64,000 bases of DNA from Hexactinellida sp. DTS-2022 (Eukaryota > Porifera > Hexactinellida). Below the pieces are notes generated by a model. The model was given only the letters and a program-made list of their open reading frames with translations. It was not told the DNA's origin and ran no database searches. The stretch is from contig JAPNXP010000006.1 of assembly GCA_028753945.1 (NCBI GenBank), positions 868,001 to 932,000 on the forward strand, read 5' to 3'. Position 1 is the first letter of the stretch; each line of letters starts with the position of its first letter. Below, one piece after another: positions 1,495 through 64,000 of the stretch. The position numbers and the translations under genes were made by a program.

Positions 1495-1947
1495 ATGCAT
1501 AGTGATAAAAGAATTATTTATGATGTTGATAAGAAAGAAAGCCAATACGAAAAGAACCGTTGCTTTTTAGTATTAAATGTGAAGAATAGCCTTCCTCTGG
1601 GTAAAATACAAGTCACAGAATTATACAAACACAAATCAAATGCGATTATAATTTGCTCAAAGAACGGAGTGAGGAAGAATACTAAAAGTATCTGGGGGAA
1701 TTATGAAGTGATTAGTATCAAGAAAAAGATCCCATGCGATTTTATAAAACAATCGATGGATGAAGCATCTCTTTATAAATGTACGGCTGAAAGCGATGAA
1801 GTAGCACATTTGAATGCAGTGAAACAAACATTGATCGAGGAGAAACAAAAACTAATTAAAGAAATAAATAACTATGGTGAAGAACTGAGGAGAGGAATCT
1901 ACAATCCCTATGAAAATTATATGAAGTCACTAGTGACTATTTTCTAA
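1495..1947 (+). CDS. array gene 1: divergent member of an unrecognised tandem family
   Basis: This 150-residue intronless protein is the first and most divergent of five tandem paralogues. It keeps the hallmark block at residues 57-84: an NGVR segment, then an S-I-W-G-N turn, an ISIKKKIP strand and DFIK. The upstream LCIG strand of its relatives is degraded to FLVLNVKN. The C-terminal third (residues 101-132: DEVAHLNAV through EINNYGEEL) is a charged leucine/isoleucine heptad segment predicted to form a coiled coil, as in genes 2, 4 and 5. The chosen Met lines up with the starts of the paralogues. An overlapping frame (1379-1570) has no family similarity. Function is unknown. A weak resemblance to the SAND fold (a strand, then K-x-W-x-x-SIR) is only a hypothesis. 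Confidence 0.65.
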   Translation: MHSDKRIIYDVDKKESQYEKNRCFLVLNVKNSLPLGKIQVTELYKHKSNAIIICSKNGVRKNTKSIWGNYEVISIKKKIPCDFIKQSMDEASLYKCTAESDEVAHLNAVKQTLIEEKQKLIKEINNYGEELRRGIYNPYENYMKSLVTIF

Positions 1948-3633
1948 GTAAACTTGAATGAACTGATTCTTGGATCCGGCCTATACTGAACACAAGAATA
2001 CAAACAGCTTTTGGTCTCGGAGCACATTAGAAAGTATTATTTGTTTATTCTTCAACAAATTCGTGAACAAAAATTGTTAGAAAATTTATAAAACAGTTTT
2101 AATCTTGATTAATACATTTTTCTAGCTCTAACATTACTAATTATTGTATTGAAATAGTACGTATAGATAAATTCTCCATTTTCAACTAAGAACAGCTTGC
2201 ATAATCGTATTTTTTATTGTATTTAAAATAAATTAATAATATAATATAATACTGATTAATGTGAATATTACTACACCGTAGTTAAACCTTTGAAATGACC
2301 AAAACAATGTAGGTATTTAATTAAGCAGTCTTTCATAATATTGTGTTTGTACAAACGAGAGTCTAGTTATTTAAGTATGTGCATTACAAACTTTTAATTT
2401 CAAAATTATATGTAAACCAATCTGATACTTGAACATTTTATTATTAGAATTGACAACAATAATAATAGCCACAAACAAAAAACTGCTTGAAATCAGCTAA
2501 TTTTAGAACACAAAAATGTTTATAATAGACTTGAATGCAATGTAACCCAGCAGAAGTCTTAATGACGCAATAATATCTCTAATCATGCCCTACTATATTA
2601 ATATTATAGTAGGCCATGCTCTAATAAACAAGTATAATATGACAAAACAATTTGGATATACAAATTTGTCTTGCACCGATATACTCAGACGCTTGACAAA
2701 AGTTAATTAAAATTATTTTCCTTTTATATATTTTATTGCCACATTAGAATCATCATCTATCCATTAGTAATCGATCCTATAAAAGAACTTGAACAACAAA
2801 CTATGACCAAGTAATTCATACACGTGCTTGTCTACAAAAGTCTATGAAATTATTAGATTTATATTTTCATGTGGGGTCTATGAGATATAGACTAAACATA
2901 AATGTCACATACTGGTGCATTACGTTTCTACAGGAAAGCAATATTTAAATTAACAGCCCTCAATTAGAATAACTTTTGTTCATTTAGCAAAATAAACTAC
3001 GTACGTATTAGCTTTTAATATCTTGCACCCTGAAAATTTGAGCTAATAATCAATTGTGGATTCACATCTATCTGCTAGTAGTATACTAACAAGAATTTAC
3101 ATGATTTTAGCTCAATTAATTAACTTTATCTACCGGCTATTGTAAATTATAAATTTTAAGGCATATTTGGGGTAAAACATTATCATATTGTATTATAAAT
3201 GGTCAAAACATACCATGTGGGTGGGTGTATAGTTTTCGGAAATTTTAGTTGCGTAAGTTGGAATTTCTCCTTGAAAGAATATTAGATCATTAAAATTATT
3301 AATAAAAAGTATAAATAATACAACCCCTTCAAATGTGCAAATAACTGAGCCTAAATATACAAACACATTAATTTCTTTTGAGGTATTATTTTGGAATTAT
3401 TCGTAAATTATGACATTGTATTAAGCCATATTATAATTATGTAAATCCAAGGTTTTTACTATGCTACAATGCAAGTAGAAAGTGAGTAGTCTGGTACAAG
3501 GCGAAAGAAAAGTGATGGTTTTTCTAATAGACTATATAAAATAATAGATAAAATAATTAAATTTATTTTCCAATATAATCTTATCTAACAAGTCTAGCAC
3601 GACTAGGTATATTTGAAACTAAATTATGTAAAA
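1948..3633. other. intergenic, no gene seen
   Basis: AT-rich spacer between array gene 1 and a SINE-like repeat. I see no sustained coding signal on either strand. A small palindrome (CTACTATATTAATATTATAG) lies near 2589-2608. Confidence 0.5.
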
Positions 3634-4061
3634 CGATCTTTTCGGTCTCGGTCGCTTTGCGACGGATCGGTGCTACGCTCCTAAGTTAACAGCCGTATGC
3701 AGCTTACTTCTCACCCTTTCTACCATTTTCCATATTTTTAACCTATTTACCTATAATTATAATATAGCTAACTTCTAGGTTGATTTTGAAGTTTCATTAA
3801 TTGTTTACCTATTCTACAAATATTCATATTAGAAATTTCTAAATGCGAAATTCGAAATCAGCATACTACTTGTTTACCTATAATAACATTTGGATATTGG
3901 TTTCTTTCTCAAATATAATTGTGGTTTCTATTCCCCGATCACTTTCATACAATCTGGACAAACAAACAAACAAACAAACAAACAAACAAACAAACAAACA
4001 AACAAACACACACACACACACAACACACAAACAAACAACAATCGAGTTTTTATAATATTAA
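3634..4061 (+). repeat. SINE-like repeat with AAAC tail
   Basis: The head carries TTCGGTCTCGGTCGCTTTGC, with a short hairpin (GTCGCTTTGCGAC) and a second weak stem around AACAGCCGTATGCAGC. The body contains CTTCTAGGTTGATTTTGA and GCGAAATTCGAAATCAGCAT. The 3' end reads ATACAATCTGGAC(AAAC)n, then CA-rich sequence and CAATCGAGTTTT. The same order recurs near 10385 (head only), 21285, 21737 and 34999, and in reverse at 6718. Directional ends and a simple-sequence tail suggest a retroposed SINE, but no RNA polymerase III boxes were confirmed. Confidence 0.6.
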
Positions 4062-4726
4062 TATTAGTATCTATTTGACTCCACCATTTTTCATAAAATA
4101 ATTAGGGCTGAAATATTATCGGGTTCCCCAATTTCATCAAAATTTCGTATTACTTATGTTCGTATTAACGAAGTTGCACTGTATATATATTCGCAGAAGG
4201 GTAAAGTAGTTTATTTTATTCTGCTTATATCGAAGTAAACGTAGAACTCTTTTGATAGTATGTCAAAAATGAATATTAAGCAGTAGATTCAATGCTATTG
4301 TGTAGAATGAAGCAGTGTATAATTTTCATTTTCTAGAATTTAATAACAAAAATTAACTTTAATAGTATAGCCATATATCTTAATTCGATTTACAACAAAA
4401 AAATACAGAAGATTTTGGTACATTAATTGATAGAAGAATTAATTAAAAGTCAATCTTTAATTGCTTAGTGATTAGATTATATGATTGAAAGTACATAATT
4501 CAATTCAGCTATTAGTTTTACTTTCTATTTAATTTAATGTATAAGCTGCAAAAATATTAAGTCGAATTACAGTAATTTACCTTAGAAAAGTTCATTGTAC
4601 CAAGTTCAAAGTCAGAGTAAATAATAAGTTTGGCAACGAGTCAAAGTAGTTAAAAGATCACATACTATAATTCCAACCAACTATTTAAGAAAAAATTGCA
4701 TATAAAGTTAGTATAAAGAAAACTAA

Positions 4727-5317
4727 ATGTCTTATTCTAAAAAGTATTACATAAATCTTTACTTTTTGAAAGAAGTTAAAGAACAAAAGAAATACCGCAA
4801 TTTCTTATGCATCGGAACGATAAACTCTATTTCTCTCGATGTAATTAAAGACCAGAATAGCGTAACAATACACACGCATACAACAGATAGGAATGTTCAT
4901 ATTGTAACATTCAGCAATGCAGTTAGAATTGAGAACAAGAAGCTGTGGGGAAATCAACTTTTAGTGTTTAGTATTAGGAAAAGGTTTTCACCGAAAGCAT
5001 TTAGAGAAGTTGAGTTAAGAGATATATTTCACAATACAACTCAAGATATTCCCAACATCCAAGCGTTAAATTTCGCAAACAGTGAATCCTCTGATGAGAT
5101 AGCATATCCACAATATTTCCAAGAAGACCACAATCTATATTGCAGCTATGAATATGATTGCACTAAATTAAGTGTAAGTAACCAAATGGCTTTCGGAAAT
5201 AATGAAATAGCGGAACTTGAATGTCTGAAACAAGAGATGTTAGCAGAAAAATTATTGCTAGAGAACGAAATTGAGTTCTACAAAGGGCAAGGAGCTCAGT
5301 TAGGAAATGTTCATTAA
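4727..5317 (+). CDS. array gene 2: tandem-family protein, conserved domain plus coiled coil
   Basis: A 196-residue intronless protein. Residues 21-96 form the conserved family domain: KKYRNFLCIG, a VTIHTH strand, a VHIVTFSNAVR strand-turn, then KKLWGN and FSIRKR. A polar linker follows (about 97-157). A leucine-rich heptad segment (about 160-187, EIAELECL through NEIEFYKG) should form a coiled coil. The closest relative by eye is gene 5; both start near a YYIN motif and share KKYRNFLCIG and NAVRIENK. There is no signal peptide or membrane segment, so an intracellular, probably oligomeric protein is likely. The biochemical role is unknown. The start is supported by alignment of the first 25 residues with genes 4 and 5 and by a TATA-like TATTTAAG at 4682-4689. 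Confidence 0.72.
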   Translation: MSYSKKYYINLYFLKEVKEQKKYRNFLCIGTINSISLDVIKDQNSVTIHTHTTDRNVHIVTFSNAVRIENKKLWGNQLLVFSIRKRFSPKAFREVELRDIFHNTTQDIPNIQALNFANSESSDEIAYPQYFQEDHNLYCSYEYDCTKLSVSNQMAFGNNEIAELECLKQEMLAEKLLLENEIEFYKGQGAQLGNVH

Positions 5318-6717
5318 ATCCTAGGTGGCCCAGGGAAGTGAAAGTGAAAGTGAAGTTAAATTCAGTTCAATTGAAAGTGAAAATTGGATATTTCTATTTA
5401 TACCTTAGACCCCAAGTCATCCTCAGGATTATATAATTATGGATTAATTAAGCGCTAATGGCTATAATATAATATGATATATACTTGCATAGTATAGTTG
5501 CTATATTTATTAATTTATTGTATATTAATTACTAATAAGCATTGCAGTTAAAAAAGTTAAAAATAATTATTTAATGTGTAATCATATTTCATTAACCAAA
5601 GTTTCATTATGAACTGGGGATTGATCGTGCATAAATTATTAGCTTAGGAATATGATTTAAAATTAGCATATAATTATATTAATCAAGTGTAAGCACAATA
5701 ATAGTAATTGTTCTAATAGCAAGTTACTGTTAGCACCTCAAGCGAGAATTTAATGTTAATTATGTAGATTTAATGGCAAATTCGTCTATTTGAAGTATAA
5801 ATATTTAAAAAACACAGTTTCATATTCAATTTCAATTTCAATTGAATTACTTTTAAGTTCAGTATTCACATTCCCGGCCAGTTTGGGATAATTATACAAT
5901 TATATAAATATTAACAGGAAAATTTCGTGCAAAATTCGATTACACAAACCCCAATGTATGTCAATACAAACATAACAGCAATCATACAATTATATCAGAC
6001 TTTTCATTAATCTAATATTATTCAGTGAAAATATTTTGGGGTTGAATACCAAAGTAAAGTTATGCTATATAAGATTGTACCTACACATTGCTTGGAGCAA
6101 TTTAACCAGAATTGGATAAAATGATTTGTTATTACTATTACTATTACTAATGTCTCAATTTAGAGGAACAGTCTGAAGGAAATATGCATAAAATCGGAAA
6201 TAAACTTTTAAGAACAATTTTAAAGTATATTCCCCGGAAGTTTTTAAATATTTTGCAATTTGTAATTAATTTGATACCAAGAGAAAACCATGACTTGCTT
6301 ACAAGATATATCCGGAAGTTAATCAGTTGAGCATGATACATTTATAATTAGAAAATTATTTTGTTTAATAATTGGTGTGTAACAGTTAGGGATATTCTGG
6401 AATTAAATGATGTAAATATTACATACACGTATCACATACTCCTTATTAGTTTCAGATAAGATCAAGGGGTATAATTACATAACGTTGAAGGAGTAGTAAT
6501 ATATTTTGTGGTCTGTAATTACGTAAAGTAGGAAAAAAAGATGTGCATATGTATTCTAGACTTCACGAATGCAACAGTCTCATTGTTAGTATTAAGAAAA
6601 CCCTCCAAGTTTCATACAGAATAAAAAGACTCGACAAAAGATGGACTATCGCAGCCCATTCTTATAAGCACTAGAAAGGAACGGAAACTGATTGACATCT
6701 ACATTTGAAAGTCGATT
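5318..6717. other. intergenic, no gene seen
   Basis: AT-rich spacer after array gene 2. It contains purine-rich GTGAAAGTGAAAGTGAA just after the stop (5338-5354). I see no coding region; the open frame on the - strand at 6147-6341 looks random. Confidence 0.5.
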
Positions 6718-7195
6718 GTTGTGTGTTTGTGTGTTTTTTTGTTTGTTTGTTTGTTTGTTTGTTTGTTTGTTTGTTTGTTTGTTTGTTTGTTTGTTTGTTT
6801 GTTTGTTTGTTTGGTTGGTTGTTTGGGTGATTGTTTAATTGATTGGTTGATTGGTTGGTTGGTTAGTTGGTTAGTTGGTTAGTTGGTTGGTTGTTTAGTT
6901 GTTGTTTGTTTGTTTGTTTGGTTGTTTGTTTGTTTGTTTGTTTGTTTGTTTGTTTGTTTGTTTGTTTGTTTGTTTGTTTGTTTGTTTGTTTGTTTGGTTG
7001 TTTGGTTGTTTGGTTGATTGGTTGGTTGGTTGGTTAGTTGGTTAGTTGGTTGTTTGTTTGGTTGTTTGTTTGTTTGTTTGTTTGTTTGTTTGTTTTGTCT
7101 ATTAAAATTCAAAATTAACCTTGTTATATAGGATAAACAAGATGCTGAACACGAGTTCAATATTTTCAAACTTTTAATGTAAATATGTATAGTCA
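6718..7195 (-). repeat. SINE-like repeat, reverse orientation, with long TTTG array
   Basis: Read on the - strand this is the tail half of the SINE-like family: body pieces near 7090-7180 (GTGTTCAGCAT, then GGTTAATTTTGAATTTTA), then an AAAC array expanded to about 360 bp with TTGG/TTAG variants (6732-7095), then the CACACAACAATCGA terminus at 6715-6730. The open frame across it is only a translated tetranucleotide repeat. Confidence 0.6.
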
Positions 7196-7722
7196 AGATT
7201 GTGTCGTGGTTGAGTTATCCGTAAAGAAGCGACCGAAAACGAAGGGCTCGTCTATTGTAAGTGCGTTGGATAAACTAAATTATAAATGTAAACATCATAA
7301 TTATTCAAATCCAAATCCTGTCTCCTATTTTCATGGAAAGGTCGCCAAAAATTTAACAGGTGGAATTAATATGGACTTTTGTGCCAACCTATGAATTCAT
7401 TAAATGCGTTGTAGAATTATTTTATTCATATTACTTTTACAAATAATATATAATTAGAAAATATATTTAATTCTATAAATAATCTTATTTACTACAAAAT
7501 CTAGTTTTCCATATAATTAAATACCACAATCACCAATAATATCTAATGATTTTGCATAGGATAGTACTATACCAGTATAGTACAATTTTAGCTTGCTACT
7601 GTTACACAAGGAAATTCTGTTATTCAGAATAGAATTGCTGTTAAACTTGTTTAAATTAAATACTTAGAAATGTTCTAAATGTGATACGCACTCATTAGTA
7701 ATTCTAAGTATTTTAGTAACTA

Positions 7723-7893
7723 CATGAGAACCGAGTTAGTATGAACACGGTTAATACGAAATTCCGGTCAATACGAACACTATTACAGTCTCCTTCAAAG
7801 CCTTTCAATATAAATGACACTGTTTAATACGAATTACGGATAAGGCGAACGCATTTTGACGCTACCAGTGTTCGTACTACCGAAGTTCTTCTG
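7723..7893. repeat. pogo-like MITE (TA-flanked)
   Basis: A 171-bp element with terminal inverted repeats: CATGAGAACCGAGTTAGTAT on the left, a matching TACCGAAGTTCTTCTG on the right, and TA on both sides. Inside are GTTAATACGAAATTCCGG and GGATAAGGCGAACGCATTTT, shared with copies at 18560, 45260 and 55076. It has no coding capacity. Confidence 0.65.
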
Positions 7894-8196
7894 TACGTAC
7901 AATTAAAAAGTTAAGAATATTTATTAATGTTATTGATTACGAAAAAGTTAATAGAAATTATAATTAATCTAGAGGCTAGCTAAGTAATTAATTGCTGATT
8001 TTGAATATCACACATTTATCTTCATTGTTGTCTTTGGTAACAAAATAGGAAACAAAGTTCGTATAATAATATTCTAGATAAAATTATAGGTAAATTTACT
8101 TCTTGCACATAAGGTTGTTTGTTGTTGTTAAGTTCAAATTAATAAATAATTGAATTTTAATGAACAAAGTTACAATGAAGAGCTCGTTATAAATTC

Positions 8197-8400
8197 CAGT
8201 AGAACCTCGTCATTACGAATGCCAGGGGACCGTCAATATGTGTTCGCCTTAGCCGAAATTAGTTTTTAACAAAAATCATTTGTATGCATTACGTAATCAA
8301 GGATTTGAAAATATGTCAATATAACAAAAACTGTTCTTATTGCGTGATTAAAAAATTCCAGGTCAATGTAAATGAGCCACTTCAATGTTTCAATATACGG
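8197..8400. repeat. partial pogo-like MITE
   Basis: The left terminus CAGTAGAACCTCGTCATTAC is followed by CCAGGGGACCGTCAA and TTCGCCTTAGCCG, the internal signature of the pogo-like family. I cannot find a clear right end, so the element looks truncated. It ends about 150 bp upstream of array gene 3. Confidence 0.5.
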
Positions 8401-8554
8401 ATATGTATAAATCATTGTTTAATTTATCGTTATACATAAGTACTTTTGAGTATAAAAAGAATAAATTGTAATAAACCTAAATTTTATGACACAATTTAAA
8501 GAGTATATAAGTTCTGAGAGTTCTTGAAAATTACATATTTAAATCAGTAGAATA

Positions 8555-9376
8555 ATGGCAGGATGCGATCTAACGAATTATCTTAAGACTTTTAACCTAG
8601 AAAAGGCTACTTATCAAGAAAAATATAGGAACTATTTTTGCCTTGGGAAATCCGATTCACTTAGTTTTGCGGAAATAGATGAGCCGTTGAATATATGTAT
8701 TTACCAACACAAAACAGACAAAAACATTCATCTTCTCTTTTTCAAGAACGCAGTCAGAATAAGCAATAGAATGCTATGGGGCAACACCGACAGGATTAGC
8801 ATAAAGAAAAGAATTCCCTTAAACTTCATAAAAGTCAAATTAAGCCAACAATCCCAAAAAGATTCTCAAAATGCACAAGATGTGATGCCAGCACATAATA
8901 ACATTTATTCCAGCTATTCTCCACAAGCCCCTGTAGAACCCGCATACCAAAGTATGGACAATCAAACAGAACGGTTCATAAACAGTGGAGAGAATTTCAA
9001 TGGATTCCCTCAATACGAACAAAACTGTACAACGCACCAACTCTGGGACAATTCCGCTATGAATGATACCAACATACAAAGTATGACTCATTGTTTGTCT
9101 GGGGACAATATAGGGGCTGTTGGCACCTATACCGGTTTCACTGGAACATTTGAGGATGAAACGCATGTCCGGGAGAGAACATATACGACACAAAATATGC
9201 TTGAGAGGACCGATTATAGAACCAGTAATTACGGGGAAGACAATTTATTCCACCAAAATAGATTCTATCCGAATGAAAATGAAAAAGATTTTACTCTCTA
9301 CGGAAGTTACGATAATGAGTCGTATATTGAATTCGGGGACTCAACTCAGTCGCAGAGTATCTTTGGTAACAATTGA
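8555..9376 (+). CDS. array gene 3: long tandem-family protein with low-complexity tail
   Basis: A 273-residue intronless protein, the longest of the five. The family domain is at about 23-96: KYRNYFCLGK, an ICIYQH strand, HLLFFKNAVR, MLWGN, ISIKKRIPLNFIKVKL. Residues 97-273 are polar and rich in Asn, Gln, Ser, Tyr and Asp/Glu, with no obvious fold and without the C-terminal coiled coil of genes 1, 2, 4 and 5. Such a tail may be disordered or act as an activation or phase-separating segment; that is inference. A TATA-like TATATAAG lies at 8504-8511, 51 bp before the ATG, and the start context (AATAATGGC) is favourable. No function can be assigned. Confidence 0.7.
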   Translation: MAGCDLTNYLKTFNLEKATYQEKYRNYFCLGKSDSLSFAEIDEPLNICIYQHKTDKNIHLLFFKNAVRISNRMLWGNTDRISIKKRIPLNFIKVKLSQQSQKDSQNAQDVMPAHNNIYSSYSPQAPVEPAYQSMDNQTERFINSGENFNGFPQYEQNCTTHQLWDNSAMNDTNIQSMTHCLSGDNIGAVGTYTGFTGTFEDETHVRERTYTTQNMLERTDYRTSNYGEDNLFHQNRFYPNENEKDFTLYGSYDNESYIEFGDSTQSQSIFGNN

Positions 9377-11249
9377 TAAATTTAGATATCAGTTTAGCGG
9401 CATACTAGCAGCAGCATGACAGCATGTGTGAAAATTGTACATAAAAATTGTAATGTGTTGTCGGGGCCACTTCAGTTCAGTGCTCAGTATTGGATTGTAG
9501 ATATTATACTGTAGGTATATATATTAAGTGAGGTATGAAGATTATGCGCTAATAAAGTGACAATTAACTTGCCAAGTTGATCGATGTTTGAACTGAGTGT
9601 GTTTAAAGTACTTGATAGATAACTTATTTAGTACATAGCATAAAATGAAAATATTATGTATTGTCTATGGGGAGTGTTTGGAAATTCAAGAATCTTATGC
9701 ATCATTTCTTAAATATTTACAGTTGGTATATCCGGTATGTTCATATAACCGGTGTTCTTATATCCGGCATCTACTGTAATATATAAAATTATACAATATA
9801 AATTATTAGTTTTCTAATTTTACTATTTTTTAAAGATTGCAAAAATGATACATGTTAAACATAATTAAATTCAGCAAACGTAGGGCAAATCATAACCAAA
9901 TTATGGTGAAACCAAAAATTTGGGTAAGAACGCAGATTCGCCCATGCAAAAAAGCATGCAACCCCAATCATCTCATCTCGGGAAATAATAAAGTAAATAA
10001 ATATATAAATACAGAGCGCTTACAAGTCAGAATAATATTAACCAATTGTCTTATTAGACTAAAGATTAGGTTTCATTATTATAGTATTGCAAGTATAGAT
10101 GGTTGCTGAGCACATTAATTAAAACAATCTAAATTTAAAATATGAATAATTAACTCATATGAAAATGAAATAGAAGTACGTACAAGCTACCTAATTAATA
10201 TAAGTACGATGTCATCAAGAGAAAGATTTAAATAAATAATTCCTACAAGATTGACATAATAAGATTACAAGATTGACATAAGAAGATAACAACCTCATTA
10301 CTATAGAATATTTGTTTGTCCAGTAAACAAAAATTTGATATTTTGAACACTTCTCTCATCTATAATAGTGAAGTCATTTTAATTAAGAGTCATTCGGCAT
10401 CAGTCGCTTTGCGACGGTTCGGCGCTTCGCGGCCTTACTACGCCATGAGGCTAATTATTGAGAATTATATATCCCTGTGGTGTATTAAATTTATTCCTCA
10501 TAATTTTCCCTTAATAAGAATGTTACACTATGTAATTGTTTGGCAAATTTAAATTATCATATTAATAGTTCAATAAATTTCAGCTGCATCATCAGTAACA
10601 GGCAGTTTATACTATGATTTGATTGGTATTAATTATGTGTTAGGAGCAGTTTAACTCTCCAATCCTATCGTATAGCAAACCGAAGCTAACTTTGCTTATT
10701 TAGTCGGAATTGGGTCAGCTCAGTCAGGAGTCTCGTTAGCTCGCTCCCAACGCTTGTGTGTCAATCAAATTTCAGCAAATCAAAAGTAGAATAAAATTCG
10801 TAAATGTGCGCGAAACAGAATAAAGAAAAGTATAGTCTAGTTGCAGGGAAAAGTTGGTCGGGCCAAATTTAACGCATCATCGTAGCTAGCTACGGCATGG
10901 CGCTACGCGTCGCTTCGTTGTATTCTCGATTCCTAAGACTTGACCTGACAACACTATTTCTAGAGAGTCTTTATTAGCGACGCAGATATTTCCACATTCT
11001 TTGCTGAGTAGAATCAATCAATCAATGGTTAGTGGCGAGATCTCACGCCGAAGTTTAAAGTTCGCAGTTGGGGATAACGCGAGCTAATTAAAGTAGCTCG
11101 CAGGCAGAGAACGAGGACTGACAAGGCCGAATTTTTTTGGTCGGGTCATGGCCCGACCAACCCAATCGGTTCCGGCGGCTCTGAGTTAAAACAAGAATTT
11201 ATATGAACACTTATGATAGACTAAGAGTATCACCGACTATTTCAAGATA
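9377..11249. other. intergenic with repeat scraps, no gene supported
   Basis: Spacer after array gene 3. At 10385-10445 there is a head fragment of the SINE-like family (CAGTCGCTTTGCGACGGTTC, then GGCGCTTCGCGGCC). From about 10650 to 11180 the DNA is richer in GC, with inverted pieces TTGGTCGGGCC and GGCCCGACCAA near 10855 and 11155 that suggest another old element. The open frames at 9852-10109 and 10316-10552 show no recognisable domain. Confidence 0.45.
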
Positions 11250-11424
11250 CAGTGGAGTTTGCATATTAGCAACTCCCCTATTAGCAATATTGCTTTATTA
11301 GCAACCGCTTTTCGGGTCCCAAGAGTGATAATATACTGTTAATTTAATTCCCCTAATAGCAACTTCGCCTATTAGCAACCAGATTTAGTGGCAAACACGG
11401 GTTGCTAATAAGCGAACTCCACTG
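11250..11424. repeat. TA-flanked MITE (CAGTGGAGT family)
   Basis: A 175-bp element. The left end CAGTGGAGTTTGCATATTAG and the right end AAGCGAACTCCACTG are inverted copies, with TA directly outside both. Four internal blocks resemble ATTAGCAAC(TC/CG), so the arms are built of short repeated modules. Non-coding. Confidence 0.65.
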
Positions 11425-12150
11425 TATGTGATTACCGCCCAATATCTACATTATAATCGAATTCCCCAACAAGATTCCAAGTTACAACACACATTTACCT
11501 AGAGATAAATAATCTCATTCAATAAGGTATTCTCATCTGATTAACAATGCCACTTGTATTTTCTAAAGTTATCTTAAACTGGTGAAAGCATGTGGGATTT
11601 GCATTTGATATTGAGCTAAATATCAAAGGAAAGTAACAATAAAATGAATATTTCTATAGAAATAAGTTAACCAACTTTTGGTTAATAAAGTATACTAGAG
11701 TAAATTATAATTATCACAATTTACCACGAAGACATAATATTACCTGTAACATTTTGTAGATTAATTTAATTCTTTGTAATAGTAACGAGGACAAATCATA
11801 TCATAGGTAATCAAGATGTAAACAGTAATTCCGTAGTCTGAAATAGATATTTTATATGTTACTGAAATATATTAAAAATACGATCTAAAAACCATAAACA
11901 CTTTTGTTTGTTAACAAAAAGATGAAAACAAACAAACAAACAAACGAAACAAACTCCTTTAAATAATAAAACGATGATAACTGACACGACTGTGCCTGCA
12001 TCTTAACCTGCAGATAAATCTATATAAACAGGACGTTAGTTAATAATTCAATGATTTATGCAATGGCTCATTTCTAGTTGAAACTATCTAAGCGAAAAAA
12101 TGGTATAAATACTATAATGTTAAAATTTGAAGGACAGAGCTTAAAAAGAG

Positions 12151-12750
12151 ATGGCTGCATGGAAGAAACAATACATTGATCTATGCGGAGTAACAGAAGC
12201 AACAAAGCGGCCTAAAGGTCGTAATTTCCTTTGCATTGGGAAATTAGGATGTGTATCATTTTCTGCAATAAAAAATACTAAGAAAGTAACAGTCTACGCA
12301 CACCCAACATTTAAGGATATCCATATACTGACGTTCAGTAACGGAGTACGAGAGAATAATACAAAATTATGGGGAGACAATCGTATTATTAGTATTAGGA
12401 AAATAATTCCACCAAATTTTGTGCAAGTTCAGCTACCATTTCAGAACACAGATGAGCATATACAATATACAATGGAACAAAACAACTCAATTCCAAATGT
12501 CACCAGCTGTAACTGTGTAGAGTTCACAAATACTTTTTCATACCAAAATAGCACTTCTTCACTTGAAATGAACAGCTCTGCAAATAATTGCAATGCACCC
12601 ACTATGTACGATCCAAACTGCTCCCATCAATTGAACAATAATTATATAGAAGAAATGGAAATACAGAAACAGATGCTAGAAAATGAGAAGCAATGGCTAT
12701 TATTGGAAATAGATGAATATCGAAATAGGTTGGAATACCAAAATATTTAG
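12151..12750 (+). CDS. array gene 4: tandem-family protein, conserved domain plus coiled coil
   Basis: A 199-residue intronless protein. The family domain spans about 22-95: KGRNFLCIGK, a VTVYAH strand, IHILTFSNGVR, TKLWGD, IISIRKIIPPNF and VQVQL. A Ser/Asn-rich linker follows (about 97-163). The final 35 residues (IEEMEIQKQMLENEKQWLL and on) form a predicted coiled coil. The domain-linker-coiled-coil order matches gene 2, and the short gene 5 lacks the linker. A TATA-like TATAAAT lies at 12104-12110, 47 bp upstream. No catalytic or secretion motif is visible; a DNA- or protein-binding role is conceivable but unproven. Confidence 0.72.
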   Translation: MAAWKKQYIDLCGVTEATKRPKGRNFLCIGKLGCVSFSAIKNTKKVTVYAHPTFKDIHILTFSNGVRENNTKLWGDNRIISIRKIIPPNFVQVQLPFQNTDEHIQYTMEQNNSIPNVTSCNCVEFTNTFSYQNSTSSLEMNSSANNCNAPTMYDPNCSHQLNNNYIEEMEIQKQMLENEKQWLLLEIDEYRNRLEYQNI

Positions 12751-13209
12751 ATATAACGAACCCGAAAGATTCTAGCTATTAGCTCTCTTTCTTATTTTAC
12801 AAAATATTGTCTTAGCACACCTCTACAATAATGCAACAATTTGATGCTTTCATGTTACACAAGCACGCTTCGCTGCTTCGCTGCGCGGATTTTAAACACA
12901 GTTTTAGCTTTGATCTCATTTAGCCTCTGCCTTCTGTTATATGAGTTCTAAATGTTAAGATATTGTACTACTGTATTGATAATAGTAAATATATACTAAC
13001 AAATGTGACAATTTTTATGTAAAATATATATGTTGAAGAATTGAGCATAATTTCCATATACAAACTGAAATCCCTCTTATCGCTGAACTATTATTGTTTT
13101 ATACATTAATATTATGTGAATAAATTATTTACACACACTATTATCTACACTTGTGGCAACAAGTGATGAAGTAATTGTTCATCACTCGTTGACACAGTGT
13201 GACATAATA

Positions 13210-13520
13210 CAGTACAACCTCGCTAATCCGAACGGGAGATCCAAAAATATACTTGTAATACAAGTGGGAAATAATCTTAAATATAGGTACCGTATATTAC
13301 AATGGAAGTATAAAAATAAGTATCAGACAAGTATTATAAGTAGTATATTACTAGAGGTTTTGTTTGATTACAAAGGTTTTAGGTTTTGATAAGTTCGGTT
13401 CGGATTATAGAGGTTCTCATCATATACATAGATACATATAGAAATGTAGTATTAATTCATTAATTGGAACGGAAATTTTTGAATCAAACACCGCAGTTCG
13501 GATTAGCGAGGGGTCTACTG
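13210..13520. repeat. pogo/Tigger-like MITE with TA target duplication
   Basis: The left end CAGTACAACCTCGCTAATCC and the right end GGATTAGCGAGGGGTCTACTG (minor mismatches) are inverted repeats. TA lies on both sides (13208-13209 and 13521-13522). The 311-bp interior has subterminal GGTTCGGATTATAGAGG repeats. An open frame at 13153-13389 runs into it and is not a gene. Confidence 0.7.
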
Positions 13521-15386
13521 TAGTGTTAATACAGTTAGACTGGATTCTGAATGACTTAGCACTATTTATACTAAATAGTATAGCATGTATTGTATTCCAT
13601 GGTAAAATCCTGGAATTGATTGGCAAATTTAAAAGTGCTAATGTTGAGATGAAAACGTTAAAGGATAATTTTTAAAACAAAAATCCATCCATAAAATTTG
13701 CAATATTCTAAGCATCAAAATAGCGTCTTGAATATAAAAATTGTAAAGCGACCCAATAATATTACTCTAATTTCATGGAAGATCCAGGGCAGTGGCGTGC
13801 TGGGCAGACGATTAAAATTGTATTTGAAGACTCACACAAATATGCCACTATAAAGTTTGAGTTAAAGGGCTGAAATTTTTGTAGCGGAAAAAGAGTGTGC
13901 GTGCGAGATATCGAATGTTCCGATAAATGGCATTCGATATAGCGAACATTATATAATCGAGTAAAAATGAAAATTCATTCGAGATAGCTGGCATTCGAAA
14001 GCAGATGTTAATTGTATATACGGTAATTTGATCCAGGGATACAAAAATCTCAGTATATATTTTTGGCGTTAAATCTAGCTAGGGGTATTTTGGAGCTGAC
14101 ATTATATTGGATAATTTTCGTCGTTATTTCCTTAAAAATTTCCTCTGCTGCGGGATAAATTTTAAATAAAGCTTTGATAAAAAAATATTATTCATAATAT
14201 TATGCAATTATTACTAAAATAACAGGTAATTTTGAGGAAACTCCAGTAACTAAATACAAATGTTGACACCTAATTAAATTATAGGTCATTATTAGACAAG
14301 AGGGTTATGCATATGTAGGGAAGCAAAAATTTAATGACACCTTCAATTACAGCTTTGTAATTGAATGATTCCTACAATTTGACTCAAGCTAGTAAAAGTA
14401 CTTTGTATAATTATGATATCTAGTACATGCACAATAATTATCATTTAGCAATTTAATGACACAATAAATATTATAGCAATAATCTAAAATAGGTTTCAAA
14501 TACAATTATTTTGATAGTCTGACCAAATATATTTGCGTATAGTGTACGTATTAAGTAGTTTACGATATCAAATTCTTGTAACACTTTCATGAACTTTAAA
14601 AATGGCAACAAAAGTCTAAAATATTGTTAGTCCATTTGAATTTATTCCCATAAATGTTGTAATGTCTGGATACGCCCCTGTCTAGAGATCAGAATCAAGG
14701 CCAGGTTTATGCAAGGGTTTTAGCTAATTAGTAATTAGATAATCAATTATTGTATAAATCGGCTTAAATATCGATTTCTATTACGTTTATGCCGTCTTTC
14801 AAATTTAGCGCATAAGAATACTGTTCTTATTAACTGGAATTTCGCATTAACCGTGTTCGTACTAACGAAGTTCTACATATCTTGTTGCTATTCGTTGTTA
14901 GGACCAATGTTAAGATAAATTTACTTACTAGCAAAGGTTAATTTTCTTACCAAAGACTTAACAAGTCTGTGATCTCAAATTTCATCCATTTATAAAAACC
15001 ACCTATATCATAAGGTCTTATCATAGAATACATATCATATCGATAATAATTTCAGTAATAACTACGTAATAGAAGCGTGGGATCCGATTTAAATAATTAA
15101 ATTTCAATGATAAATCTTCGGCGTGGAACAAGAAAAATTCATAAATTGAAGTGTATCCTATATCTATTCTTGTGCTACCTATATTTAGAGACTTTTTAAA
15201 TTGAAAATAAAGTGAATACACTATTACAGTTAATTTCACTTTGGACGCATCAACAGAACACTACCTACAAATTAAAGGATTATTTGCTCAATCTATTTCT
15301 ATTTTGGCTCATACAGTTTTCTTAAAAGAGAATATGGACTAGATTATCTATAAATAAGGTTTACAAAGTATTTTTTATCACAAAAC
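13521..15386. other. intergenic with possible large MITE and pogo scraps
   Basis: CAGTGGCGTGCTGGGCAG at 13790 and a distant inverted partner CTGGATACGCCCCTG ending at 14680 resemble the CAGGGGCGTAG termini of the elements at 25885 and 62008. They may mark an old, internally interrupted element of about 890 bp, although no target duplication is visible. A short inverted pair around 13915-14000 contains CATTCGATATAGC and CATTCGAGATAGC. A pogo-like end (GTTCGTACTAACGAAGTTCTAC) lies near 14855-14876. No gene is supported. Confidence 0.4.
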
Positions 15387-15800
15387 ATGTATAATAAATT
15401 ATATTATATTAACAGCTGCAGGGTTACTGAAGTGAATGGACAGAAAAAGTATCGCAATTTCCTATGCATAGGGCCAATAGAATCACTCTCTCTCGCAGCA
15501 ATAAAATACCAGAATAGTGTAAGCATCTACGCTCACAAAATAAAAAGAAATATTCATATTATTTCGTTCAGGAATGCTGTAAGAATCGAAAACAAGCAAT
15601 TATGGGGCAACAATCTCGTTATTAGCATCCGGAAACAAATTCCTTCAGACTTTATACAAGTACAGCTAGAAGTTAATGTGGCTCAAGAAGAGATAGAAAT
15701 AGTCGAATTATTAAAAATGAAAAAGAAATACTTAACGGAGGTTCTTCAACTAGAGATAGAAATTCAGAGTTTAAAGACAAATATTACTTTAATGATTTAA
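15387..15800 (+). CDS. array gene 5: minimal tandem-family protein
   Basis: At 137 residues this is the shortest and cleanest member. The domain is at about 20-94 (KKYRNFLCIG, SIYAH, NIHIISFRNAVRIENK, QLWGNN, ISIRKQIPSDF, IQVQL). It runs almost directly into a coiled coil at 99-132 (EEIEIVELLKMKKKYL through EIEIQSL). Because the variable linker of genes 2 and 4 is missing, gene 5 defines the family core. It is intronless. A TATA-like TATAAATA lies at 15349-15356, 38 bp before the ATG. The charged heptads predict a dimer or higher oligomer. Function is unknown. Confidence 0.72.
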   Translation: MYNKLYYINSCRVTEVNGQKKYRNFLCIGPIESLSLAAIKYQNSVSIYAHKIKRNIHIISFRNAVRIENKQLWGNNLVISIRKQIPSDFIQVQLEVNVAQEEIEIVELLKMKKKYLTEVLQLEIEIQSLKTNITLMI

Positions 15801-22650: not shown

Positions 22651-25334
22651 ATGGCTCAATATGAAGTAATACAATTAGTTCAGGTACAGAAAGAGAATAG
22701 AGTGCCAGTGAAAGCAGTCAACTCATCTTTAGAAAGAGAAAATAGTATAATTGTATGGTATGGAACCGAAGAAGACTACGCTGAATTTAATAAAGTAATC
22801 AAAGAATACAGTATGGACAAGATGAAGAGAATGTTATTAGGTGGAGCGCCCTATTTGCACAAAGTGGATGATAGCAATTTTCCAATGATTCCCATTGCAT
22901 TCTACTCCCGTACTGATATTATGGAAATTATATTAGAGAGACACAAGAAAGAAGGAACCCCTGATGAAACAGAGCTTCGCAATCAGACACGGAAAGGACT
23001 GACCGTTGTTTGCGAAAACAATTGTGGAGATATAGCGCGAATACTTCTTCAATTTAATGATTCACCTGCTAGACAAGTTATACCTAACATACATTTGAAC
23101 CAGGCAGCTGAACATGGCAGTACAGCAGTGCTGAATGAGATTATTACATCCATTCCAGACATAGAAATAAATACAATGGACAGAGAAGGGAATACACCGC
23201 TACATAAAGCTGTTGAGAGGAAACACATGCACACCGTCCAATATCTACTCAACCACAGTGCCAATCCAAATCTTGCAAACTATTTGGGATACAATTCAGT
23301 TCACATGGCATGTCAATATGCTGATGAAAACATTCTCTATCTTCTCACTACGAGAGGTGGTGATGTTAATGCTAGAGAGCGTAAAGGGAAAACTCCAGTG
23401 ATGATCGCAGCAGAGAATGGGAAAGACGGTTGCATCCACATTCTAGCAGCAGCAGGAGCTAGCTTAGACCAAAGGGACAAACGAGGAAATGCGCCATTGA
23501 TCGTAGCAGCAAGTCAGGGACACACTAATACGGTTAGAGAATTGATTCTCAATGGTGCTTCATTCGATGTGACAGATAACGATCGATACAACGCACTCGA
23601 AAGGGCAATCACAAACAAAAAGGATGGAGCAGCTGCCATCATCATCCGTTTGTCACCACAAGATGAATTCTTTAAATATTATCTAGACCGAGTCGAAATA
23701 AACTGGATGAAGATTGTACGCTATCGTCTAACTAAAACACTAAAAGCACTTCTGGATAAAATGGTAGTACAAAATGATCCGCCTTATTTCACTCAGGCAA
23801 TTGTACACACAAAATACCTAGAAATAGATATTGGCGGGAAAACTCCAGGAAGAGAAGGATACGAAAAGAATAAAAATTATTTGCTTCAACGTATCACAAG
23901 ATTAGATGATGAAGATATTGCCTACCATGGAACGATTCGTTTATTAGTTGATAAGAAAATGGATAGATTTGGCAATGGGATCCTAAGTATCAAAATATCA
24001 TTTCATGTCATTTTTCTCTTGTCTCTAGCATACTCATTGTCGCTCGCAGCATATGAACCAATTCAACTGAAGATATATACCAAAGATGCACTGAATAATA
24101 TCAGGATTCTTACGGATTTATTCGTATTGGGGTACTTTATCATTGACTTTGTATCCGAATTGGTAGAAATTATCAGAGTGGGTAAACTCACGTACACCTA
24201 TCTGGACGATAAGAAAAAGTGGAAAGAAAACGACAAAAATCGTGATAAAGCATCAAAACCTGGAACAAATAATGATAATAAGAAACGGTCAGTAAATAGC
24301 ATAGTGAACAATAAGAAACCTACCCGTGTACTCACTGATTATTTGAGTGATAAATTCAACTACCTGGATGTACTCGGTTTACTAACACTCTTCATTCTGA
24401 TAATCCTTCGTGTCACTACTCAACCAACCCAATGGATTTTCGCAACATTAACATTCTTAATCCACTGTCTAAGGTCATTCAAGTTAATAGCACTTCTACC
24501 TCGTATCGGTCCATACGCTAATATTATCTATAAAATCCTTGTTAACGATGTGCCTCTGTTTCTAACGCTTTTTTCCTCACACTTCTCATCTTTACTGGCG
24601 GCTTTTTTATCTCCCTAAGAACTCCCTACACCATTCCAGGATTCGTTAACGCTTCACTCAATCAAGATACTGAACGCATAAGTGGTGTAGACAATGAAGT
24701 ACAGTGGGTGTTCCTATCTGGTCTAAGAGTACTGTTGGAGGGAAACGTGTACGAAGGACAATACTTGTTTCGACAACTCAACTGGCTGGCTGCTTCCCTC
24801 TACTTAGGATTCCTATTCCTAACCATTGTTGTGTACCTGAACGTGTTCATTGCTCAGCTATCAGATACCTACGGTATTGTTAGGAAGAACGCAGAACGCA
24901 CCTATGCATGGCAGAGACTTAACTTCATTGTACAAGTAGAGACTACTTCTTTGATGTCATTAGGCATTGATTACAGAAAAGATTACTTCATTAAAAAGAT
25001 AACTATCGATAAAGAGACTCTCTACAAATACTATGGTGTACACAATATAAAGTGGTTGAACATAAACAGTTTCACAAATGAAGTTGCTGCAAAGAGCGCA
25101 CTTGCATCTATCCAAAGTGAACAGAAGGTAATGCGAAGAGAAATAGTTAATATAAACAAGGCTGAAGAATCTACAAATACAATACAACGGAAACAAACTC
25201 AAGAAATAAAGGAATTGAAAGATCGAATAGATAAACTAGTGACCGACATGAGTATTGTGATGGAAGATAGATTGGAGAAGTCAACCCAAACAATACTGAG
25301 GATGATTGAAGAGAAGTTCAAAGAATTGAAATAA
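22651..25334 (+). CDS. ankyrin-repeat TRP-like channel, copy 1, with one frameshift
   Basis: Two consecutive frames (22651-24618 and 24708-25334) together equal the intact paralogues. Order: N-terminal region, about five ankyrin repeats (residues 150-345), S1 and S2, a short basic linker, S3 and S4, then the break at the start of S5. Intact copies read CTTTTCGTCCTC here; this copy has CTTTTTTCCTC (T run at 24569-24574), one base shorter. The following pore, S6 (LNVFIAQLSDTY) and C-terminal coiled coil remain open in the shifted frame. The C-terminus lacks the Pro/Gln-rich stretch of copies 2 and 3. The family would form tetrameric cation channels in a membrane. The break is either a real recent mutation or a homopolymer sequencing error, since the rest is well preserved. 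Confidence 0.8.
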
Positions 25335-30533: not shown

Positions 30534-30806
30534 TATGACAGTAAACTGTATGGTATGTTCTTGGTCCTCGGGTAAGGATAATAACTACGTGTCATCTGAT
30601 AGTACATACTAACAGAATTAAACATATATTGAAATACCGTAGGTACATTTTGCATTATATAGTTTTGGAAAGAACTAAGATTCAACAGTAGATCGTAATG
30701 CGCTATTTGGGTTAATTAGGTTTTGTCTAATTCCTGTGAACTTTCCAAAAAGGTATGCAGAGATTCTTGATTTAACAAATAAATAAATAATAATAGCTAA
30801 CATCAT

Positions 30807-33605
30807 ATGGCAGTTGCAGTTAACCCAGAATATCCGCTACTAAGAATGGATGGGAATGAAGAATCAGGGTTTGTGCCACAGCCATACCTCACGAAATTCA
30901 TCAAAAAAATGTCTGTAGTGACGGATATTAAAAAATGGAACGATAGCGAAGAAGACTACGCTGAATACAATGAAGTAATACGTCATTTCAGTATGGACAA
31001 GATGAAGAGAATGTTATTAGGTGGAGCACCCTATTTGTACAAGGCAGATGACTGTAACTATCCAATTACGCATACTGCATTCTATTCCCGTACAGATATC
31101 ATGGAGATAATCCTAGAGAGACATAAGAACGAAGGGACCCCTGATGATGATGCTGAATTTCGCCAACAAACATGTGAAGCACTCTACACTGTTTGCACAA
31201 ACAACTGTGGAGATATAGCACGAATACTCCTTCAAGTTGATACGCCAGTTATACCGAGAGCACACTTGAACCAGGCAGCAGAGAATGGCAGTACAGCAGT
31301 GCTGGATGAGATAATAACATTCATTCCAGACATAGCAATAAATACAATGGACAGAGAAGGGAATACGCCGCTACATAAAGCTGTTGAGAGGAAACATATG
31401 CATACCGTCCAATATCTACTCAACCACAGTGCCAATCCAAATCTTGCAAACTCTTTGGGATACAATTCAGTTCACATGGCATGTCAATACGCTGATGAAA
31501 ACATTCTCTATCTTCTCACTACGAGAGATGGTGATGTTAATGCCAGAGAGCGTAAAGGGAAAACTCCAGTGATGATCGCAGCAGAGAATGGGAAAGACGG
31601 TTGCATCCACATTCTAGCAGCAGCCGGAGCTAGCTTAGACCAAAGGGACAAACGAGGAAATGCGCCATTGATCGTAGCAGCAAGTCAGGGACACATTAAT
31701 ACGGTTAGAGAATTGATTCTCAATGGTGCATCATCCGATGTGACAGATAACGAGCGATATAACGCACTCGAAAGGGCAATCACAAACAAAAAGGATGGAG
31801 CAGCTGCCATCATCATCCGTTTATCACCAGAGAAAGATTACGTCGGCAATTATTTATTAACAGTGGAAATAAGTTTGTTGAAGATTGTACGCTACCGACT
31901 AACTGAAACACTGAAAGCACTGTTGGACAAAATGGTAGTACAAGACGATCCTCTCGATTCCTCAAAGGGAATAGTGCGCACCGTGTACTTAGATGTTGAT
32001 ACTGATGGAAAAACTCCAAATGATAGACAATATCAAAAAAACAAAACCTTTTTTCTCCAACGCATCGCAGGTCTAGATGATGAAGAAATTGCATACCATG
32101 GCACAATTCGTCTGCTTGTTGATCAGAAAATGAGAGTATTCGGAAATCGAATTTTGGGTATCAAAATAATTTTCTATACAATTTTCCTCTCATCTCTGGC
32201 TTACTCCCTTATTGCAGCAGCAAATAGGCCAATTGAACTTAGTTCCTATACCAGTGATGCATTTGGGTTCGTTCGTATTTTCACTGACCTAATCGTGTTG
32301 GCTTATTTTCTCTTCAACCTGGTAACTGAGGGGGTAGAATTCTTCAGGGTTACTAGACTCACATTTCGATATATCCAAGATAAGAAAATGGATAGAAAAA
32401 AAGAAAAAGAGCGTCAAAAAACGGTAGAAACACAATTTGATACGGATGACCATGATTGCGAAGACGACGACAGAGATGAGTATGCATTCGAGCCTGCGGA
32501 GGATAAGAAAGAAACACCTAAACGGGCAAGGACCAGTAGGTTGAACGACATCATTTTAATACGTATATTCACTGATTATTTCAGTGATAAATCCAACTAT
32601 CTGGATGTACTCGGTCTACTAACACTCTTCATTCTGATAATCCTTCGTTTCACCACTCAACCAACTCAGTGGGTATTCGCAACCTTAACATTCCTAATAA
32701 ACGGACTTAGAATGTTCAAGTTAGTAGCACTTCTACCTCGTATCGGGCCATACACTAATGTTATCTATAAAATCCTTGTCAACGATGTGCCTCTGTTTTC
32801 CACGCTTTTCGTCCTCACACTTCTCATCTTTACTGGCGGTTACTTTATCTCCCTAAGAACTCCCTACACCATTCCAGGATTCGTTAACGCTTCACTCAAT
32901 CAAGATAATGAACGCATAAGTGGTGTAGACAATGAAGTACAGTGGGTGTTCCTATCTGGTCTAAGAGTACTGTTGGAGGGAAACGTGTACGAAGGACAAT
33001 ACTTGTTTCGACAACTCAACTGGCTGGCTGCTTCCCTCTACTTAGGATTCCTATTCCTAACCATTGTTGTGTACCTGAACGTGTTCATTGCTCAGCTATC
33101 AGATACCTACGGTATTGTTAGGAAGAACGCAGAACGCACCTATGCATGGCACAGAATGAACTTCATCGTACAAGTTCAGAGGACCTCGTTAATGTCAATT
33201 TTCATTGACCACAGGAAGAAATACTTTGTCAACGAGATATCAATCGATAAGGAAAGTCTATTCAAATACTATGGGGTACACAGTATTAAGGGGTTGAACA
33301 CGAAAAATTTCACTGAAGATGTTGACGTGAAAGGAATGCTCGCTTCCATTCAGAATCAACAGATCGTGGCTCGTCAGACTCACGAAATATCCCAGTCAAC
33401 CAACACAGCCGGGCCTCCAGCCCAGCTGCCTCCGCCCCCTCAACAGGAAGAGTCCCAGTCCCAACAGATACAGGAGCTGAGTGGGAGGATAGACCAGCTG
33501 CTGGCAGAGATGAGACAGAAGGACGCTCTGCTTGAGGAGCGCTTGGAGAAGTCCAATCAAGCCTTGTTAGGGATGATTGAAGAAAAATTTAGAGAACTGA
33601 AATAA
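30807..33605 (+). CDS. ankyrin-repeat TRP-like cation channel, copy 2 (intact)
   Basis: A 932-residue intronless protein. Ankyrin repeats occupy about 150-345 (GNTPLHKAVERKHMHTV, GKTPVMIAAENGKDG, GNAPLIVAASQGH). After a pre-S1 linker come six hydrophobic segments: S1 (about 450-475), S2 (about 490-517), a long charged Asp/Glu-rich linker of about 60 residues, S3 (NYLDVLGLLTLFILII), S4 ending in LLPRIGPY, S5 (STLFVLTLLIFTGGYF), the pore (VFLSGLRVLLEGN) and S6 (FLTIVVYLNVFIAQLSDTY). The C-terminus has a Pro/Gln-rich patch and a coiled coil ending KFRELK. This is TRPA/TRPV-style architecture, so a tetrameric plasma-membrane cation channel is likely; the subfamily and stimulus cannot be told. It is nearly identical to copy 3 in the ankyrin and pore-to-end regions. 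Confidence 0.88.
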   Translation: MAVAVNPEYPLLRMDGNEESGFVPQPYLTKFIKKMSVVTDIKKWNDSEEDYAEYNEVIRHFSMDKMKRMLLGGAPYLYKADDCNYPITHTAFYSRTDIMEIILERHKNEGTPDDDAEFRQQTCEALYTVCTNNCGDIARILLQVDTPVIPRAHLNQAAENGSTAVLDEIITFIPDIAINTMDREGNTPLHKAVERKHMHTVQYLLNHSANPNLANSLGYNSVHMACQYADENILYLLTTRDGDVNARERKGKTPVMIAAENGKDGCIHILAAAGASLDQRDKRGNAPLIVAASQGHINTVRELILNGASSDVTDNERYNALERAITNKKDGAAAIIIRLSPEKDYVGNYLLTVEISLLKIVRYRLTETLKALLDKMVVQDDPLDSSKGIVRTVYLDVDTDGKTPNDRQYQKNKTFFLQRIAGLDDEEIAYHGTIRLLVDQKMRVFGNRILGIKIIFYTIFLSSLAYSLIAAANRPIELSSYTSDAFGFVRIFTDLIVLAYFLFNLVTEGVEFFRVTRLTFRYIQDKKMDRKKEKERQKTVETQFDTDDHDCEDDDRDEYAFEPAEDKKETPKRARTSRLNDIILIRIFTDYFSDKSNYLDVLGLLTLFILIILRFTTQPTQWVFATLTFLINGLRMFKLVALLPRIGPYTNVIYKILVNDVPLFSTLFVLTLLIFTGGYFISLRTPYTIPGFVNASLNQDNERISGVDNEVQWVFLSGLRVLLEGNVYEGQYLFRQLNWLAASLYLGFLFLTIVVYLNVFIAQLSDTYGIVRKNAERTYAWHRMNFIVQVQRTSLMSIFIDHRKKYFVNEISIDKESLFKYYGVHSIKGLNTKNFTEDVDVKGMLASIQNQQIVARQTHEISQSTNTAGPPAQLPPPPQQEESQSQQIQELSGRIDQLLAEMRQKDALLEERLEKSNQALLGMIEEKFRELK

Positions 33606-44122: not shown

Positions 44123-44240
44123 CTTAGAGAATCGCTAATTACCATTAAATTATCATAATAGAGTTAAAATGTTATAGTCAATTATTCATATATTAGCAGT
44201 GAGTGGTTTTTCACCAATTAATTAATGCCTCCTTAAAAAG

Positions 44241-62427: not shown

Positions 62428-64000
62428 TCAAGTATATATTTGGAATCGTTCTTCGATGGTAGACCTGCACATTGGGTATTGTTCTAGGTGTACGCTGCAA
62501 TTCTCGCAACATTTAGCATGCCTGCAGAGAAGAAATACTACGGTTGTTTCTCTACGTAATAGGCACACACAGCAAGCAGCAATTTGTTGAGGAGTTTCAC
62601 GCTGATCATCTTCATCGATTGAAGAATTGCTTTGAAGATCTCCATGTATCATATCAATCGAATTGTTTTCTGGTTGAATCGAGTTGGCAATTGATTTCAC
62701 ATATTGGACTAGATCATATTCACCTGACACAAGCTTTTCTCTGCAGTTACTAAGGAATGAATCTTTCTGGATATCTTTCAATTTTCGTGTGCGAGTGATA
62801 TCAATGCCTCTGCTTAGACGCTCAATATCCAGATCAGTATCCTGGATTGTGTTATTTAAGACTTCTACAAAGAACCAAATGCGTGGATGTGCGACTACGA
62901 TGTCCTTTTTCAATCTACCATGGTAGTTTTCCGCTCCATTGCTCGTTCTGAATTGACAGTTAAAAACAGAGAGTTCGTTGCTAGGAATGCCATCAATCCA
63001 TTGCTTTCTGAATTCTGATATAATTTTAAAAAATGGTAAAGTTATCCATATTCTCAGCAGTAAGAATGACATCTTCCAAATTTAAGTGATTATATTATAT
63101 ATTGGTCGAATATGATCTTCGGGAAGAAATGGAAGAGCCATAAAACACCTAACTGCTGTTTTAAATTCCAATTCGAGTGATATGCATTGGAAAGGCCTAA
63201 CCTTTGAATCTTACGCCAGACACTTTGAGAATAGTGAAAATGACATCCTCTAAGAAGAATACCTGGAAATCGTGTTTTTACAGCGTTTCTAGCACCCCTT
63301 TCCCAATCGGACATCCCATTAATAGGTGTTAGTTGCGGAGGAAGTTCATGAATTCTGCTAGAACAGCAGTATAGATTTCTTCCTGTTTGCCTGTAAGCAG
63401 ACAACTAATCGTAGGGAGTACGTGACGCCCAAATCGTGCAAAAACTGTCCACAGTTGATATAATTGGGAAGGGACGGTGTAAAATGTTCCATCTAAATAA
63501 ATGTCTTCTGCTTCTGATAGTGTAGCAGTCATCTTATCTGAGAAAAAAATTACTCCGATATCATTTCCCACATGTACCTCACCTTTGTAATGGACACCAA
63601 ATTGTGATGACGGAATCATTTGACAAAATTCAGCAGGACTTCCAGGAATAGGTGGCACAATTTCTCTACGTGCGCGATACATTGTTGATTCTAAATTTTA
63701 TATGATAAAGTAGTCGCAGCAGGATCATCACGGACCACTTGTTTAAACACCTTAGATAGTCTGTCACGTGAGGTTCTCGCCGCGATTAAGCACTTTGATT
63801 TTAAGAGGTAAAGTTCGGCCCTATAATCTGAAAGCGGGTGATTGTGTGCTTTTAAGGGTGTAATGGTATCGGAGTGAGAATCCAACTTTGCGGATCCTCT
63901 ACATGCTTTTTGTGTCAGATATAAAACACATCGTAAATTTGTCATACCATGTTTGGCTTTATAGCGATTATATTTGAAACCATCTGATGTAGTAATGATC
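62428..64000 (-). pseudogene. decayed FLYWCH-MULE transposase with C-terminal RING-like module
   Basis: Reading leftwards from the window edge (5' end cut off). First comes a FLYWCH-type finger (GFKYNRYKAKHG, then LRCVLYLTQKACRG and KAHNHPL). Next is a MULE-type transposase with IYLDGTFYTVP, LTGKQEEIY and CHFHYSQSVWRKIQRLGL, then ALPFLPEDHI in a shifted frame. A C-terminal part follows with FRTSNGAENYHGRLKKD. Last is a RING-like end (CCVCLLRRET, CRHAKCCENC, YPMCRS) in the same frame, where the usual CPxC has become YPMC. The reading frame shifts near 63690, 63340 and 63165, and a stop lies at 63082-63084. It is therefore a dead copy, or the sequence has indel errors. No terminal inverted repeat was identified. 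Confidence 0.78.

Follow-up and report, generated by a model that had tools for sequence, protein, structure and literature searches.

A conserved, uncatalogued tandem gene family at a single locus of a hexactinellid sponge genome

The array and its shared domain

We identified a real, conserved and uncatalogued tandem gene family, ordinary in kind, in the genome of Hexactinellida sp. DTS-2022 (NCBI GenBank assembly GCA_028753945.1). Five of its genes lie near the start of a 64,000-nucleotide stretch of contig JAPNXP010000006.1 (positions 868,001 to 932,000 of the forward strand), referred to below as the window. The encoded proteins have in common a domain of ~77 residues, aligned from the protein start, that has been kept by purifying selection on average while linkers and tails diverged.

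All five open reading frames (ORFs) run uninterrupted from ATG to stop on the + strand. Gene 1 (1495..1947, 150 aa), the most divergent of the five, encodes the domain followed by a coil-like segment. In gene 2 (4727..5317, 196 aa) a linker of ~60 residues separates domain and coil-like segment, and in gene 4 (12151..12750, 199 aa) the linker is polar and ~65 residues long. Gene 3 (8555..9376, 273 aa) has a 175-residue tail rich in N, Q, S and T. In gene 5 (15387..15800, 137 aa) there is almost no linker between the domain and a long predicted helix. Start-to-start distances are 3232, 3828, 3596 and 3236 nt, and the ORF check agrees with the coordinates and spacing given in an earlier note on this DNA. 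That note described the genes as intronless. This is correct for the five coding frames, but is nothing special here because the large neighboring genes are likewise single frames.

Pairwise identity in the domain is 32-65% over 72-77 codons (10 pairs), and the five-protein alignment has 16 invariant columns, including the first Met and one column in the tails. Most of the sequence anchors listed earlier hold in this alignment, but several differ in gene 1 (e.g., N-R-C-F-L-V-L-N and C-S-K-N-G-V-R). When gene 5 was used as the query against the genome, the other four array genes were recovered at E values of 4.8e-29 to 4.3e-8.

In the domain, synonymous change has reached saturation, whereas the protein has changed only to a limited extent. 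The proportion of synonymous differences (pS) is 0.60-0.88 and the nonsynonymous distance (dN) 0.22-0.80; the Jukes-Cantor synonymous distance (dS) is 1.2-3.0 in five of the ten pairs and not computable in the other five. The resulting dN/dS values (0.15, 0.16, 0.30, 0.32 and 0.41) are rough at synonymous saturation and, being pairwise averages, may mask a small number of fast sites. They bear out the earlier proposal of long-term selection despite divergence: the suggested dN/dS comparison gave values well below 1, and none near 1. Thus, the domain has on average been under purifying selection; neutral decay would look different.

It is very improbable that these frames are decaying pseudogenes or arose by chance. 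Five ORFs of at least 130 aa beginning with ATG were observed, versus 0.015 expected per 16 kb when the region was simulated with a first-order Markov model (200 runs). Synonymous change is saturated although the protein is conserved. With M and W excluded, genes 2 and 5 have 49 identical residues, of which 28 use different codons. Codon usage, a point in favor of such an origin, is only weakly typical (0-57 of 500 null windows are equally good for genes 1-5), and in gene 5 frame +1 is slightly above the real frame; it adds little to the coding evidence.

Probable divergent members upstream of the window

The array had been described as five paralogues. The array is real but its membership was undercounted, as two frames outside the window are probably divergent members. 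The nearer (C15:865426-865905, on the same contig; 159 aa) starts 2.6 kb before the window and reads K-H-R-R-F-F ... V-Y-E-H ... N-N-W ... S-I. The farther (C15:857567-858175) is its sole relative. A profile of the five genes scores 15.4 bits for the nearer and 11.0 bits for the farther, and none of 2000 shuffles of each reached the real score (best 11.4 and 9.3 bits). Single-protein searches with genes 1-5 miss both upstream members, and the reverse searches likewise miss genes 1-5. The kinship of the pair therefore rests on the profile test, the common strand and the position. Both differ from genes 1-5 in the region of the first helix. A tree of the seven domains has one well-supported split among four inner branches, which separates the upstream pair from the five; branching within the five is unsure, and gene 1 and one upstream member are on long branches.

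The seven members occupy one 26-kb stretch on one strand. A seven-member profile was searched against all six frames of contig positions 828001-932000. It recovers its own seven members, as it must by construction, and no other match rises above noise (next E value 0.21). Eight protein searches identified no further credible member elsewhere in the 112-Mb, 18-contig genome. Two of these searches each missed one of the five genes, so a very divergent distant member could escape, and the single-locus claim covers this genome only, not other species. Two weak matches were dropped: C4:5803571 (E 1.06) lies within a frame read by eye as a sulfotransferase, and the match at C16:5176368 (E 0.11) is confined to the coil region of gene 2 (residues 151-186).

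C-terminal tails

Genes 1, 2 and 4 encode a common 33-residue C-terminal segment, with 11-12 identities depending on the pair. Tail kinship was tested by leave-one-out profiles against 1000 shuffles. No shuffle was as good as the segments of gene 1 (1795..1893, +; residues 101-133) and gene 2 (5201..5299, +; residues 159-191), and one was as good as that of gene 4 (12640..12738, +; residues 164-196). For gene 5 (15687..15785, +; residues 101-133) 610 shuffles were as good, so this test gives no support for sequence kinship of its tail with the other segments. This part of gene 5 belongs to a 39-residue helix (residues 98-136) in the structural model. Thus, of the four proteins earlier reported to have a coil, sequence supports it for genes 1, 2 and 4, and only the model does so for gene 5.

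Gene 3 lacks a coil-like segment, and N, Q, S and T make up 39% of its tail. The tail of gene 4, which has kept the segment, is equally polar (42%). In genes 1, 2, 4 and 5 the best heptad window coincides with the C-terminal segment; in gene 3 and the two upstream members it is located elsewhere in the protein. By their form, the C-terminal helices may mediate dimerization, and the oligomeric regulators suggested in the earlier note are a possibility.

Searches for relatives

The earlier note knew of no named family with this pattern, and indeed we found no catalogued relative of the domain in Pfam or among PDB sequences. Weak Pfam and PHROG matches to the seven proteins range from E 0.005 (Mei5, on the coil of gene 1) to E 0.25. 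All those from Pfam are under the cut-off, and we regarded the whole set as chance. The same applies to the PDB sequences 6pfp, on the coil (E 2.9), and RPL24 (E 0.084). The best PHROG match (E 0.0058) is to a family of unknown function, and no relative was identified there. Scans of viral contigs (37 pattern matches, none confirmed) used two short peptide patterns, and scans of prokaryote genome contigs (52 pattern matches, none confirmed) one or two, and thus had little reach. Among the papers listed for tandem families of sponges or of single lineages, and for eukaryotic origin-binding-type folds, titles and abstract openings contain nothing on this domain.

A distant SAND-type DNA-binding family had been proposed. 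The SAND domain and the array domain are alike in size, in a conserved tryptophan and in the S-I-R/K motif, and the array domain has a strand and is followed by a coil-like segment. GMEB proteins have a coiled coil after their SAND domain. However, motif spacing, secondary structure and profile comparison all disagree with a SAND-like fold. The proposed motif K-x-W-x-x-SIR is not present: only genes 2 and 4 have K-x-W, and the tryptophan is seven residues before S-I-R/K (eight in gene 2). In Sp100, which reads K-N-W-K-L-S-I-R, it is three residues before the serine. A passage of PMC5021326 places the charged DNA-contact patch of SAND in an alpha-helix at KDWK. In contrast, S-I-R/K of the array domain is in or at a strand in both structural models (in gene 5, W73 and S80, with a strand at residues 77-81). 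The Pfam SAND profile (PF01342) has no match to genes 1-5 (hmmscan, E up to 10), alignment of the seven domains with four SAND sequences (hhalign) gave a probability of 0.1% over 8 columns, and no SAND structure is among the 50 matches listed in each of four fold searches. A genome-wide SAND profile search was uninformative, as it recovered none of 14 controls. Kinship with SAND is scarcely credible.

Predicted fold and likely function

The structural model of the domain is fairly confident (predicted local distance difference test score, pLDDT, 82) and has five strands and short helical turns. The nearest solved folds are mostly nucleic-acid-binding, and the proteins of genes 1-5 are strongly basic. 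Our best guess, which we hold tentatively, is a lineage-restricted tandem family of small, basic, coil-dimerized nucleic-acid-binding proteins. Such tandem families of small oligomeric proteins resemble the array in occupying one locus and one strand, in local duplication, and in a conserved core with variable linkers; the array domain itself is unmatched in Pfam or PDB sequences. The domain would be a small five-stranded alpha/beta fold whose basic surface binds nucleic acid, and the C-terminal helix would form homo- or heterodimers. Paralogues with different linkers might then enter different complexes, and gene 3, with a polar tail replacing the coil, could act as a monomer or as a competitor for the same target. 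The array presumably grew by local duplication. Two results weigh against a coil-dimerized nucleic-acid-binding family. The scores of the fold neighbors are no better than background, and a crude heptad score is significant in no single protein (89-235 of 500 shuffles are as high in genes 1, 2, 4 and 5).

Viral origin-binding domains are the top fold-search matches of both models, with Rep domains lower. This could indicate that an initiator-type domain was captured from a DNA virus or a rolling-circle element, domesticated and, after the capture, duplicated in tandem. The presence of single frames at a single locus fits such a capture, as do the helicase, E1 and Rep proteins found with a viral model library, all weak (best E 0.074). 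However, the origin-binding domain of polyomavirus large T antigen (2itl, 4nbp, 3qfq) has only 8-11% identity at a background-level score. Its fold combines a sheet of five strands with two helices on each side; the inner helices of the array domain are predicted to be turns only. The array proteins also have no helicase region, and have a coil after the domain. The Pfam family of origin-binding domains has no match to genes 1-5 in the hmmscan search, neither the scan of viral contigs with two short peptide patterns nor PHROGs yielded a confirmed relative, and the upstream pair diverges from the five around the first helix. We consider domestication improbable. Similarly unlikely is a new animal nucleic-acid-binding domain with an origin-binding or Rep-like fold that a single lineage captured or evolved and then expanded into seven paralogues, most of them dimerized by their tails.

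RNA recognition motif (RRM) domains (e.g., ABH8, PTB, hnRNP L) have a beta-alpha-beta-beta-alpha-beta fold with two full helices; the two inner helices of the array domain are predicted to be much too short. RRM (PF00076) was also rejected by sequence, with no hmmscan match to genes 1-5; with the RRM_1 profile, 150 places were scored of 167 candidates in the genome, none in the array.

It is possible, though somewhat doubtful, that the proteins are adaptors or immune-type effectors, with a domain that binds another protein, a coil for oligomerization, and an array that diversifies as partners change. Families of this type typically have strongly diverged tandem members, variable linkers and a loss of the coil in one member. 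Neither upstream member is basic, and the array is located among tandem TRP (transient receptor potential)-like channel genes, in a region that favors local duplication. However, dN/dS is well below 1 in every computable pair (a few fast sites may exist), and an adaptor role leaves the strong basic charge of genes 1-5 unexplained.

Upstream regions and genomic neighborhood

The sequence TTCGTAYTAACGAA starts 568 nt before gene 2 (window position 4159) and 531 nt before gene 5 (14856); a copy that differs at a single base starts 684 nt before gene 3 (7871). It was not found before genes 1 and 4 or the two upstream members. We rejected it as an array-specific upstream element because the genome has 275 exact copies, versus 2 of the reversed control; it is a dispersed element. 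Among the 1.2-kb upstream regions, the strongest similarities are simple-repeat matches of genes 2 and 4 and an inverted match of 58 bases, which includes TTCGTAYTAACGAA, between those of genes 3 and 5. No common promoter was demonstrated in these regions, where the other similarities were not sorted individually. Arrays of (ACAA)n and (TTGT)n in opposite orientation flank gene 2 (3958-4038 and 6719-7095). A 38-nt element with an inner GTCGC-TTT-GCGAC inverted core is present twice, at 3641-3678 and 10393-10430, the copies being 84% alike.

Ankyrin-repeat TRP-like channel genes, named by eye from the sequence and with only a weak PKD_channel match, flank the array on both sides. One (L007:2121-4838, +) lies between the two upstream members. 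Downstream are copies at 22651-25334, 30801-33605 and 36957-39728 (+) and at 41357-44134 (-). Four of the five copies are single-frame; the copy at 22651 has two overlapping frames with a break at ~24546-24618, due to a pseudogene or an assembly error. Near the end of the window (62428-63697, -) are frames that by eye resemble MULE/FAR1-type transposases, with no profile match to these; one frame includes a RING finger (zf-C3HC4_3, E 2.1e-6).

Implications

At present, these genes constitute a well-supported orphan family. If the domain does bind DNA or RNA, the regulators of a possibly early-branching animal would include an uncatalogued family, and the array would show how local duplication with tail change gives rise to such arrays.
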